Source: Bacteroidota bacterium
GTDB taxonomy: Bacteria; Bacteroidota; Bacteroidia; 2-12-FULL-35-15
DNA: 64,000 nucleotides
Assembly: GCA_025963775.1 (NCBI GenBank)
Contig: JAOQAD010000040.1
Span: forward strand, 248,001-312,000
Reading direction: 5' to 3'
Under the pieces are notes generated by a model. That model was given only the letters and a program-made list of their open reading frames with translations. It did not search any database and was not told where the DNA came from. Position 1 is the stretch's first letter. Every line of letters starts with the position of its first letter. Of the stretch, positions 47,092-51,665 are shown piece after piece. The position numbers and the translations under genes were made by a program.

Positions 47092-47306
47092 GCCCTGTCA
47101 TTTTACCACAGATTACACGGATTTCACAGATTGGACCCGCTCCCGCCGATCGATTGATCCTGATAAAAGTGTTGCACTGCTATCAACTAAACGTCCTTTT
47201 CCATCCAACTAAATGTCACAGAACACGAAAAGTGTCCATGATATTTCCTTTTTTAAGCTGCACTTTTGTTTCAGCAGAAGAAACATTCAAAACAAATAAA
47301 AGAACT

Positions 47307-47372
47307 ATCCGTAAAATTACCCATCATCCCCAATGGGTATTTTTACCCATGATTTAGCGGGATTTTACGGAT
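47307..47372. repeat. Compound inverted repeat at island edge
   Basis: Outer arms ATCCGTAAAAT and ATTTTACGGAT (11 bp) enclose an inner hairpin ATGGGT / ACCCAT (47332-47350). About 66 bases in total. Confidence 0.65.
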
Positions 47373-47492
47373 GGTGCGGGTTGTTTTATTGGGATACATT
47401 TGGGGACAGAAAACAGGATAAAAATTTTATTAGTAATTTTTTAAAAGCTGCATTTCACAATCTTCTAACTACATAAAATAAAACATTATAAA

Positions 47493-47954
47493 ATGAAAAT
47501 AATACCAGACTCAATTTTAATTGGCTTTCTTGGACTCGGAGGGTCTGAGATAATAATGCTGTTGTTAATATTTCTGATCACCCCTTTAATTCTTTTTCTT
47601 ATCACCCTTCAAAACACATTTACTGAAATAAGCTCCGAGAACCGACAAATGCCTCCCGGGCAAGTCTGGCTTCTATTAATCCCTCTATTTGGACTTATAT
47701 GGCAATTCATTGTCGTCAACCGATTAGCGGATTCATTGAAAGCGGAGTTTACTAAAAGGAACATCAGGATTGAAGAAGACAGACCCGGAAGCACTATCGG
47801 GATCGCCTATTGCATTCTGAACTGCTGTAGTATCATTCCCTACCTGGGCCCTTTGGCAGGCTTAGCTGGATTAATCTGCTGGATCATCTACTGGACAAAA
47901 ATAAATGGATACAAAAAAGAATTAAAGCAAACGTTCAATCCCTATATAAATTAA
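47493..47954 (+). CDS. Small four-helix membrane protein of unknown function
   Basis: 153 residues. Hydrophobic helices at about 8-37, 55-78 and 105-135 (IAYCILNCCSIIPYLGPLAGLAGLICWIIYW in sections), separated by a basic cytoplasmic loop (LKAEFTKRNIRIEEDRP). A PPGQVWLLLIPLFGLIWQF segment resembles DUF4328-type proteins, but I do not claim membership. No catalytic motif. It opens the AT-rich block and ends 24 bases before the TPR-SHOCT gene on the same strand. Confidence 0.7.
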   Translation: MKIIPDSILIGFLGLGGSEIIMLLLIFLITPLILFLITLQNTFTEISSENRQMPPGQVWLLLIPLFGLIWQFIVVNRLADSLKAEFTKRNIRIEEDRPGSTIGIAYCILNCCSIIPYLGPLAGLAGLICWIIYWTKINGYKKELKQTFNPYIN

Positions 47955-47978
47955 TAAATCACATTAAATTTCACTATT

Positions 47979-48758
47979 ATGAAAAAGGCTTTTGGTATTA
48001 TCTTTTTACTTCTTGGACTTGGAATGATCGCACTTGGAATAGCAGCCATAACAAACGTAGAAACCCGGAGAAGCTCCGTAGAAGGGTATTTTGGCTCCGA
48101 GTTCAGTGACAGTTACCGACGACACAACACAGAACAACAGATAGTCGGAACCGGACTTACGGTCGGAGGATTAATTTTCTTCATCCTCGGCATTGTCATG
48201 GTTGCAACGAAATCAAGCTCTCAAAGGAAAAAGGAAGCAGAACTGAATTCAATAAAAAAATGGTCAGAACACAATCATCAAACAGATCATTCTACCGATG
48301 CAAATACAGATAACATGACCCGGCAGGCCATCAGCCTGTATAATCAAAAAGATTATTACTCTGCCATTGTTATCTTACAGCGTGTATTGGTATTGAGCCC
48401 AACAAGCTATCAGACATATTATAATTTAGCATCCCTCTACTCCATTACTCAAAACCCTGAAGCGTTTAATGCATTATCAAAGGCTGTGGAATATGGCTAT
48501 CTGAATTTTGAGAAAATAAAAACACATCCGGACTTTGAATGGATGAGAAAACAAGCCGAGTACGAAGGATTTGTAAAGCAGGGATATAAGCTTAAGATCA
48601 AAGCAACCGAAACCCAACCTCATGCAACGCCTAAAACGTCTGTAATCAATAATGACATTTATGTACAGTTGGAAAAGCTTTCTGATCTAAAACAACGAGG
48701 TATTATTACTGAGGTAGAATTTGCAGAGCAGAAAAAAAAGCTGCTGGCGGCAATATAA
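47979..48758 (+). CDS. Two-helix membrane protein with TPR and C-terminal SHOCT domain
   Basis: 259 residues. Membrane helices at about 4-27 and 57-80 enclose a polar loop (RRSSVEGYFGSEFSDSYRRH). The cytoplasmic part has a Lys/Glu segment, TPR-like repeats at about 113-165 (AISLYNQKDYYSAIVILQRV, YYNLASLYSIT) and a C-terminal SHOCT module (LEKLSDLKQRGIITEVEF) at 228-259. SHOCT is a short helical module at the ends of membrane and stress proteins. The TPR-SHOCT part is about 50 percent alike by eye to the protein at 49273. Its role is unknown. Confidence 0.8.
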   Translation: MKKAFGIIFLLLGLGMIALGIAAITNVETRRSSVEGYFGSEFSDSYRRHNTEQQIVGTGLTVGGLIFFILGIVMVATKSSSQRKKEAELNSIKKWSEHNHQTDHSTDANTDNMTRQAISLYNQKDYYSAIVILQRVLVLSPTSYQTYYNLASLYSITQNPEAFNALSKAVEYGYLNFEKIKTHPDFEWMRKQAEYEGFVKQGYKLKIKATETQPHATPKTSVINNDIYVQLEKLSDLKQRGIITEVEFAEQKKKLLAAI

Positions 48759-48808
48759 CATCTAATGATTTCAAATTAATATTCAAAAAATACTCCTAAT
48801 CAAAAAAC

Positions 48809-49225
48809 ATGAAACAGGTCTTTCTATTTTTAACACTCCTGATCGGAACATTCGCCTGCAACAACAATAATGGCAGCAGCACTCTTAATAGCAGTTACCA
48901 GGAAAAAGTACAGTCAGTTGAAGAAATCGAACGTTCTCAGCCTACCAGTTTTTTGACCGCAACAGGAACTTATAATCAAAACTTCTGGGGCACTAAAATT
49001 AAGGTTCATGGAATTATCAAAAACACTGCTACGGTTGCCACATATAAAGATGCAGTAGTTAAAGTCACCTATTACAGCAAAACAAATACAGTATTAGGCA
49101 ACAACAGCTATACGATCTATGATTTTTTCCCACCTCACTCCGAGAAAAATTTCGAATTAAAAATTGAAAACTATCAAAATGTAAGTACAATAGGATGGGA
49201 TGTAATGTCGGCGCTACCGAATTAA
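48809..49225 (+). CDS. Lipoprotein with FxLYD-like beta domain
   Basis: 138 residues. Lipobox GTFACN (Cys17). The mature part has a beta sandwich pattern: ATGTYNQNFWGTKIKVHGIIKN, YKDAVVKVTYYSKTN and SEKNFELKIENY. This resembles FxLYD-type domains that modulate envelope proteins, but the match is weak. It lies between the two TPR-SHOCT genes (50 and 47 bases), so likely co-transcribed and part of the same membrane system. Confidence 0.72.
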   Translation: MKQVFLFLTLLIGTFACNNNNGSSTLNSSYQEKVQSVEEIERSQPTSFLTATGTYNQNFWGTKIKVHGIIKNTATVATYKDAVVKVTYYSKTNTVLGNNSYTIYDFFPPHSEKNFELKIENYQNVSTIGWDVMSALPN

Positions 49226-49272
49226 GACATTATCGTAACTGCTGTACAAACAATTTAACAAATAACAAAACA

Positions 49273-49989
49273 ATGAAAAACAAAGGAACTTCTGCATTGC
49301 TTGCCTTCTTTTTAGGCGGGCTCGGCATTCATCAATTTTATTTAGGGCAAAGTACCAAAGGGATCTTTTATCTGCTTTTTTGCTGGACGTTTATTCCATC
49401 TTTTATTGCATTAATTGACTTTATTATACTTTTATCCATGAGTGATGATACTTTTAACCTGAGATATAACACTCCCGGAAACATTCAAATAAATGTAAAT
49501 ACGGGAAGCAATAACCAATACAGGAACTCAACGGTTAATAATACAGATGCTGTTATAGGCGAATTGACAAATAAAGCCATCGCTCTTTATAACACCCAGG
49601 ATTATGATGCTGCATTAACTTTACTTAAAAGGGCTGTTTCGTTACAGCCTTACAATGGCAAGCTCTATTTTAATCTTGCCTGCATATATAGTATAAAACG
49701 CGATCTTAACAATTGCCTAAGCAGCCTGCAATCAGCTATTGAAAATGGTTATTCTGATTTTAATAAAATAAACACTTATGTAAACCTCGCATGGATACGA
49801 AATCAGGAACAATATAAAACATTTGTAAAAAACGGTTACCACGTCGATCTAAACGAAACAATACAAAATAAAGCCTCTTCAAAATTAGATATAGATCAAT
49901 TGGAAAAGCTTTCTGACTTAAAGAAAAGAGGCATCATAACAGAGGAAGAATTCACTGAACAGAAAAAGAGGCTGTTGGCCTCAACATAA
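49273..49989 (+). CDS. TM2-domain membrane protein with TPR and C-terminal SHOCT domain
   Basis: 238 residues from ATG 49273; an upstream frame to 49195 overlaps the lipoprotein and was dropped. Residues about 6-55 are a TM2 domain (LLAFFLGGLGIHQFYLGQ, then ALIDFIILL). An Asn/Thr-rich linker follows. TPR-like repeats at about 93-150 (AIALYNTQDYDAALTLLKRA, YFNLACIYSI) and SHOCT at 207-238 (LEKLSDLKKRGIITEEEF) match the protein at 47979 closely. The two differ only in the membrane module. Confidence 0.82.
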   Translation: MKNKGTSALLAFFLGGLGIHQFYLGQSTKGIFYLLFCWTFIPSFIALIDFIILLSMSDDTFNLRYNTPGNIQINVNTGSNNQYRNSTVNNTDAVIGELTNKAIALYNTQDYDAALTLLKRAVSLQPYNGKLYFNLACIYSIKRDLNNCLSSLQSAIENGYSDFNKINTYVNLAWIRNQEQYKTFVKNGYHVDLNETIQNKASSKLDIDQLEKLSDLKKRGIITEEEFTEQKKRLLAST

Positions 49990-50012
49990 GCCTTAATTGA
50001 ATAAACACCACA

Positions 50013-50699
50013 ATGCCCCTGAAAACTTCTGAAACCAAACTTGGATACTTAAATATTCTTGTCCTTATTTTATCCATTTATGTTTTAGGTGCACTGCTCG
50101 TCGACAGTGTTTTTAAACTTCCTCCTGAGGTTTCCAAGGTTCTTAACCTCACTGACAATCTCATCTGCATTGTTTTCTTTATTGATTTTTGCGTTCGCCT
50201 TTTCCAGGCGGAAAACAAACTAAAATTCATGCGATGGGGATGGATCGATTTAATATCAAGCATTCCAACAGTTGATTTTTTAAGGGCGGGAAGAGCCTTA
50301 CGATTGATCCGTTTACTGCGTGTGATAAGAGCATTCCGTTCCACAAAAAATTTAATAAATCATATCTTCCGAAATAGGGCCGCAGGAGCTTTTACATCTG
50401 TTTCAATTATCGCTATATTACTTATTATTTTTTCCGCTATTGCAATTTTGCAGGTTGAAGATGATCCCAATAGCAATATAAAGACCGCGGAGGATGCGAT
50501 CTGGTGGGCTTATGTAACTATTACCACGGTTGGTTATGGCGACAAGTTTCCTGTAACTTCAGAAGGACGTTTGATTGCTGCTGTTCTCATGACTGCCGGT
50601 GTTGGACTCTTTGGAACATTCACCGGATTTGTGGCATCCTGGTTTGTTGCAGATAAAAGAGAAACCCAGGATAAGGGAATTGATGATATTGACCGTTAA
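50013..50699 (+). CDS. Voltage-sensor-type potassium channel
   Basis: 228 residues, six membrane helices. S4-like positive helix RAGRALRLIRLLRVIRAF (Arg about every third residue), pore with selectivity filter TTVGYGDKFP and a final helix before a short charged tail. It should conduct potassium and respond to voltage or a related stimulus. It has no cytoplasmic RCK domain. It starts 23 bases after the TM2-TPR-SHOCT gene, so the block may form a membrane system coupled to ion flow. Confidence 0.92.
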   Translation: MPLKTSETKLGYLNILVLILSIYVLGALLVDSVFKLPPEVSKVLNLTDNLICIVFFIDFCVRLFQAENKLKFMRWGWIDLISSIPTVDFLRAGRALRLIRLLRVIRAFRSTKNLINHIFRNRAAGAFTSVSIIAILLIIFSAIAILQVEDDPNSNIKTAEDAIWWAYVTITTVGYGDKFPVTSEGRLIAAVLMTAGVGLFGTFTGFVASWFVADKRETQDKGIDDIDR

Positions 50700-50756
50700 T
50701 GAAGCCGCAGTCTCTGGCAACATATTTTCATTCCTTCTTTTAACTAATTTTGTTAA

Positions 50757-51665
50757 ATGAAGAACAATTCCCACTTCGACATCATCATCATCGGCGGAAG
50801 CTATGCAGGGCTCTCTGCAGCAATGGCACTTGGCCGTGCTTCACGAAAGGTACTTGTGATCGACAGTGGCAACCCCTGTAATAAACGGGCACCGCGTGCG
50901 CATAATTTCCTCACATGGGATGGTATGCCTCCGGACGGGATCCGGAATAAAGCAAAAGAACAGGTAAAAAAATACAGCAGCGTTACTTTCCTTGATGGTA
51001 TTGCCAGCGATGCTTCAACAACAAAGGACGGCTTTGAAATAACAACAGAAAAAGGAGAACGGTTCAGTGCGAAAAAACTGCTCTTCGCTACCGGCATAGA
51101 AGACCTTCTGCCGGAAATCCCCGGATTGGCAGAATGCTGGGGAATCTCGATCCTGCATTGTCCGTATTGCCATGGTTATGAAGTAAAAGGGAAAACAACC
51201 GCAGTGCTTGCCAATGAGATCCAGGCGTATGACCTGTGCATGGTGCTTACACAGTGGACAAAAGAGATCATGCTGCTGACCAACGGAAGATCGGCATTGA
51301 CAGAAGAGCAGGTCAATAAATTCAAACAGCACAGGATCCACATCACTGAAACAGAAATAGAACGGGTGGAGCATCACAACGGACAGATGCAGGCCATTCA
51401 TTTTAAAGATGGCAGCAAACTGAACGTTTCCGTAATGTATGCAAAGCCAGGCTTCAGGCAACAATGCACACTCCCCGAAAAACTGGGTTGCAAAATGACA
51501 AAAGGAGGACACATTGAAGTGGATAAATGTAAAAAAACTTCCGTTCACGGAATTTATGCAGCGGGCGACAATTCAAGCCAGTCGAGGATCATCTCTATGT
51601 CGGTAGCGGCAGGCAGCGTTGCCGGCATGATGCTGAACGGGGAGCTGAGCTCCGAAAGCTTTTAG
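50757..51665 (+). CDS. Thioredoxin reductase-like FAD/NAD(P) oxidoreductase
   Basis: 302 residues. FAD-binding IIIIGGSYAGLSAAMALGRA, redox pair CPYC in ILHCPYCHGYEVKG (residues about 138-141), second nucleotide site (VLANEIQAYDLCM, degenerate GxGxxG) and AAGDNSSQSRI near the end. It matches the short TrxR-like group, which often lacks normal NADPH binding. The substrate is unknown. The second Rossmann motif is weak, so the NADPH use is not certain. Confidence 0.88.
   Translation: MKNNSHFDIIIIGGSYAGLSAAMALGRASRKVLVIDSGNPCNKRAPRAHNFLTWDGMPPDGIRNKAKEQVKKYSSVTFLDGIASDASTTKDGFEITTEKGERFSAKKLLFATGIEDLLPEIPGLAECWGISILHCPYCHGYEVKGKTTAVLANEIQAYDLCMVLTQWTKEIMLLTNGRSALTEEQVNKFKQHRIHITETEIERVEHHNGQMQAIHFKDGSKLNVSVMYAKPGFRQQCTLPEKLGCKMTKGGHIEVDKCKKTSVHGIYAAGDNSSQSRIISMSVAAGSVAGMMLNGELSSESF

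Follow-up and report, generated by a model that had tools for sequence, protein, structure and literature searches.

Why would a genome hold, a few hundred base pairs apart, two related proteins that carry the same C-terminal body on different membrane heads? The question is raised by a locus in the window, i.e. the whole stretch of 64,000 nucleotides analysed here. The proteins P0002 and P0004 are built in the same order from an N-terminal head, a TPR region with its TPR-end domain, and SHOCT at the C-terminus. Both TM2 and SHOCT occur widely, and to our knowledge neither domain has been assigned a function. The earlier note had placed two open reading frames at this locus with a TPR region and a near-identical SHOCT tail in common, and this description is borne out by the Pfam and NCBIfam profiles and by BLASTP (Table 1). 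P0002 and P0004 are the only two SHOCT matches in the whole assembly, which is 65% complete.

Table 1. Position and evidence of the features of the locus, numbered along the window.
Feature	Position	Strand	Description
Low-GC accessory island	47092..50776	.	Five genes, about 3.7 kb, between atpC and a reductase gene
P0001	47493..47954	+	153 aa, about four TM helices
P0002	47979..48758	+	259 aa, two-helix head + TPR + TPR-end + SHOCT
P0002 two-helix head	47979..48218	+	Two helices (about residues 5-25 and 57-78) joined by a loop of about 30 residues (hydropathy)
P0002 TPR + TPR-end-of-group region	48312..48593	+	NF047558 36.7 bits (cut-off 32)
P0002 SHOCT	48666..48746	+	PF09851 33.0 bits, E=4.7e-8 (above cut-off 27)
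P0003	48809..49225	+	138 aa, probable lipoprotein; signal peptide + Cys17
P0004	49273..49989	+	238 aa, TM2 head + TPR + TPR-end + SHOCT
P0004 TM2 domain	49276..49425	+	PF05154 58.4 bits, E=8e-16 (above cut-off 27.9)
P0004 TPR + TPR-end-of-group region	49564..49827	+	TPR_2 29.9 bits; NF047558 48.2 bits
P0004 SHOCT	49894..49977	+	PF09851 37.0 bits, E=2.6e-9 (above cut-off 27)
P0005	50013..50699	+	228 aa, voltage-gated K+-channel-like; PF00520 E=1e-24, PF07885 E=1e-15

From the TPR region to the C-terminus, the two proteins are 43% identical over 164 aa (BLASTP, E=8e-42). The NCBIfam model 'TPR end-of-group' scores above its cut-off in both. TPR_2 and TPR_1 exceed the Pfam cut-off in P0004, and the single TPRs of P0002 lie under it. 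The AF2 models, built from three-sequence alignments, reached a mean pLDDT of 71 for P0002 and 67 for P0004 (83-92 in the TPR part of the latter) and displayed the expected helices, the TPR fold and a SHOCT domain of two helices in both proteins. Only TPR scaffolds, LapB and MamA included, were returned by a fold search. The most plausible start of P0004 is at 49273. A start at the in-frame ATG further upstream (49195) would make the gene overlap that of the lipoprotein P0003.

The heads are of different kinds, as had been proposed. Hydropathy reveals a two-helix hairpin in P0002, which has no TM2 (PF05154) match, and Pfam identifies a TM2 domain in P0004. No similarity between the two heads was detectable by BLASTP, and the P0002 head has no match elsewhere in 149 genomes of the class at E<=0.01. 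With a paralogous stretch from the TPR region to the end and unrelated heads, the earlier idea of domain shuffling, one body placed onto two membrane heads, holds. According to the positive-inside rule, both heads should be N-in/C-in, with the TPR-SHOCT half of each protein in the cytosol. TM2, the commoner of the two, is probably the ancestral head and the hairpin the derived one.

Identity is unevenly distributed along the shared body. Between P0002 and P0004, 24 of 30 SHOCT residues are identical (80%) as against 38% in the TPR part. In SHOCT, P0002 is less similar to its ortholog in a congener (genome G013; 59%) than to P0004, and in the TPR part it is more similar to the ortholog (54%); synonymous divergence is found throughout these comparisons. 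Recent gene conversion as the source of the near-identical tails is unsupported, 14 of the 24 identical SHOCT residues being encoded by differing codons. That identical residues often have different codons points to an old duplication and not to fresh copying. The pattern in the window is suggestive of selection for matching tails, and the 30 residues compared give a hint that both tails may share one partner.

The two genes lie on an accessory island. Homology to the sister genome G014 ends at about 47089 and restarts at 50777, and the AtpC protein of that genome is identical to the one of the window. In another congener (G007) the reductase gene directly follows atpC. The GC content of the block is 34-40%, compared with 44-50% in the flanking genes. 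The break of the match, the direct junction in G007 and the low GC identify the block as an accessory island whose cargo differs among relatives. The atpC-reductase slot looks like a small integration hotspot, filled by two other genes in G014 and by none in G007. All five genes of the island are on the same strand with gaps of 23-50 bp and are therefore likely co-transcribed; a search for the Bacteroidota promoter pattern gave no site within the island.

The other proteins of the island have histories of their own. P0001, which has no Pfam family above cut-off, belongs to a family widespread in Bacteroidota. It was considered as a conserved partner and set aside, the family occurring in many contexts without nearby TPR-SHOCT genes. 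In one bacterial family (f37), its relatives are arranged in tandem, carry tails rich in proline or glutamine and are often found close to RNase H-like genes (L086, L090, L092). Homologues of P0003, which bear clear lipoboxes, were found in 13 of 198 class genomes, that of the window not counted, and in the loci read no TPR-SHOCT gene is close to any of them. The lipoprotein was thus rejected as a conserved partner and does not belong to the layout as the earlier note had it: it is absent beside the relatives of the pair, and the P0003 homologue of G013 (58%) is on another contig. In one locus (L268, 4397-5149), a P0003-like domain follows a cytoplasmic segment and a single TM helix in one fusion protein, an arrangement in favour of an extracytoplasmic location of this domain. 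The last gene of the island encodes P0005, a compact protein with S4-like arginines (RALRLIRLLRVIRAFR) and a TVGYGD filter.

Is the pair conserved? The earlier note had made its proposal dependent on conserved pairing in a neighbourhood search, and the outcome is divided. Within the genus the pairing fails. Only one of 35 congeners, G013 (record JAOQAG010000046, uncultured Bacteroidetes bacterium), has a relative, a hairpin-TPR-SHOCT ortholog of P0002 with 52% identity over its length. A genome-wide scan with the alignment of P0002 and this ortholog retrieved the G013 record only. The gene of this ortholog lies in a low-GC patch of its own and directly follows a P0001 ortholog (69%); the locus has neither TM2 partner nor lipoprotein. 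The neighbour pair conserved in the genus is thus P0001-P0002 and not P0002-P0004. No counterpart of the window's gene layout was found in 395 class genomes. In the same 395 genomes, full-length TM2-TPR-SHOCT proteins were found outside the window in one other family only, f63, and here the mixed pairing recurs.

Family f63, which we take to be probably Saprospiraceae, was sampled with one genome per species across 80 genera, and 70 primary loci were read using mechanical ORF calls and profiles built in this analysis. The TM2-TPR-SHOCT body is present in 73 of the 80 genera. The typical gene order is a SpoIIE-type phosphatase, the TPR-SHOCT gene(s), a CBS protein (219 residues), POTRA/Omp85 and NAD kinase, the neighbour domains being assigned by Pfam and NAD kinase by our own reading. 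The phosphatase and/or the CBS gene flanks the TPR-SHOCT slot in 61 of 70 loci. This locus (e.g. L032, L033, L034, L154, L155) is a candidate for an undescribed signalling locus. An OppC-like permease gene is often found upstream of it.

The heads in f63 are TM2 only in 59 of 70 loci, hairpin only in four and a tandem pair in seven, hairpins being called by hydropathy and the absence of a TM2 match. All seven tandem pairs, from seven genera, are mixed (TM2 + short hairpin), with both genes on the same strand 10-301 bp apart and in either order. When related genomes are treated as independent, the probability that all pairs are mixed by chance is 3e-6 with random heads and 0.04 if the 14 paired genes are assumed from the outset to include seven hairpin copies. 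With about 35-40 hydrophobic residues, the f63 hairpin heads are short, unlike the P0002 head with its long loop. The likeness of the SHOCT tails seen in the window is weak in f63, where the seven pairs rank between 7 and 44 of 81. In two genomes with mixed pairs (L156, 2849-4018; L159, 3939-5108), Lgt-like genes replace the phosphatase upstream and are duplicated in the latter.

Trees and an alignment were built from the TPR-end-SHOCT half. In the trees, P0002, P0004 and the G013 protein are grouped in a single clade (100/100) that falls outside f63, and this split between the window pair and the f63 pairs is firm. A single origin of all hairpin forms was rejected by the AU test (p = 1e-8), as was a single origin of the f63 hairpin forms (p = 0.001). 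Mixed pairing was thus reached separately by at least two lineages. Support for many inner branches of the tree is weak, and within f63 the appearance of repeated head swaps could also result from gene conversion between tandem copies.

The interpretation preferred here, to which a probability of about 0.5 is assigned, is that P0002 and P0004 are two cytoplasmic TPR adaptors, tethered to the membrane, which are retained together as a heterotypic pair. They would go back to a tandem duplication of a TM2-TPR-SHOCT protein, after which a plain hairpin replaced the TM2 head of one duplicate. Each adaptor would be anchored in the inner membrane by an N-terminal hairpin of two helices whose ends both face the cytosol, and would present to the cytoplasm one short TPR groove, the TPR-end domain and the SHOCT at its C-terminus. 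The groove would bind a client, the head would provide a membrane address and the SHOCT tail would anchor or assemble. Through the two anchors, the same cytosolic client could be bound at one platform with different partners in the membrane. In the window, this platform may involve the products of the presumably co-transcribed neighbours, the four-TM protein and the K+-channel-like protein; in f63, the likely client would be the neighbouring SpoIIE-type phosphatase or CBS protein. The differently headed bodies lie side by side and are never same-headed in the loci read, which argues for heterotypic use. The minority of paired loci in f63, the existence of hairpin-only loci and the lone hairpin protein of G013 indicate that the pair is not obligatory. 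A fuller version is put forward only tentatively and is rather unlikely: TM2-headed and hairpin-headed TPR-SHOCT proteins would form a heterotypic platform recruiting a cytosolic client, in f63 the SpoIIE-type phosphatase, and the pairing would have been rebuilt several times by head swaps.

The SHOCT tail is a doubtful candidate for the glue of such a pair. A contact between the two SHOCT domains had been envisaged earlier, but in the only published test found, a SHOCT fusion stayed monomeric without multimerisation (Eberhardt et al. 2013, PMC3581485). SHOCT-like domains recur in phage shock protein (PSP) neighbourhoods, where they were proposed to be inner-leaflet anchors (2024 PSP study, PMC11237479). 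This recurrence is also what speaks for an envelope-stress module related to the PSP system, a very improbable explanation: Pfam and NCBIfam searches recovered no PSP, Toastrack, sigma or anti-sigma gene in the island, and there is no PspA, PspC, LiaF or two-component gene among its five proteins. The envelope-stress label of the earlier note is thus unsupported.

A simpler history would be that a marginal gene was duplicated in tandem and that its head then drifted, the head being a mere tether and the pairing functionless. We consider it somewhat unlikely. It would account for the sporadic pairing in f63 and for its loss or original absence in G013, and it agrees with the fact that one copy suffices in many genomes and with the N-in/C-in tethers that TM2 and hairpin should both yield. 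It does not explain why all tandem pairs are mixed and none same-headed in two families with separate origins, nor why the bodies of both copies remain constrained. The island could also be a mobile defence-like or stress cassette with the membrane and K+-channel-like proteins as effector and the TPR-SHOCT pair as sensor. The low GC, the slot holding other genes in the sister genome, the patchy occurrence in the genus and the position of the G013 copy, in its low-GC patch by a gene that in our reading looks similar to one for a type I restriction subunit, would fit such a cassette. It is nevertheless improbable, as PADLOC returned only weak TPR-like matches of P0002 to Csx1/CARF models and the island encodes no nuclease, toxin or nucleotide cyclase. 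Full-length proteins were found on no plasmid or phage either: P0002 had no plasmid match, and the plasmid and phage matches of P0004 span at most about half of the protein, centred on TM2.

Among known proteins, the closest to the window pair are the f63 TM2-TPR-TPR_end-SHOCT proteins, which match it in domain order and in mixed pairing. Alignment and tree place the window proteins with them as homologous TPR_end-SHOCT bodies bearing a membrane head. They differ in a body at most 43% identical, in the Arg-rich linkers of f63, in the separate origin of the hairpin and in their neighbours, since the window genes lie between atpC and a reductase gene and not between a SpoIIE phosphatase and a CBS gene. 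LapB/YciM is a TPR adaptor that is anchored in the inner membrane, faces the cytoplasm and ends in a small C-terminal module. P0002 and P0004 have weak fold matches to it (4zlh, 9up5), but they lack its rubredoxin-type Cys motif and have far fewer TPRs, SHOCT standing in the place of the motif. The TPR scaffold MamA likewise gives weak sequence and fold matches; it is soluble, without TM head or SHOCT, and the match is far under the NCBIfam cut-off. The SHOCT proteins (PF09851) of Eberhardt et al. (2013) share a C-terminal SHOCT, and membrane or oligomeric partners are common among them. The architectures given there include TM2-SHOCT-HhH and none with TPR, the words 'TPR' and 'tetratricopeptide' being absent from the main text.

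A search of a literature library found no paper describing a layout in which TPR-SHOCT proteins are paired on unlike anchors. New findings are the recurrence of the mixed pairing and, in f63, the neighbourhood with phosphatase and CBS genes. The repeated natural swap of heads on a constant body comes close to a ready-made experiment in which the role of the head is separable from that of the body, and the family-wide SpoIIE-phosphatase/CBS neighbourhood points to a definite candidate for the client of a TM2-SHOCT protein.

Elsewhere in the class, TM2 is joined straight to SHOCT in proteins of 110-122 residues without TPR (L273, L275, L277, L278). Neighbouring pairs of separate SHOCT genes were found, among 247 class genomes, in the window and in one other genome only (G120). 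In the latter (L279, 4253-4711 and 5111-5767), SHOCT is N-terminal in both proteins, their membrane parts are different, and a gene for a small membrane protein lies in between.
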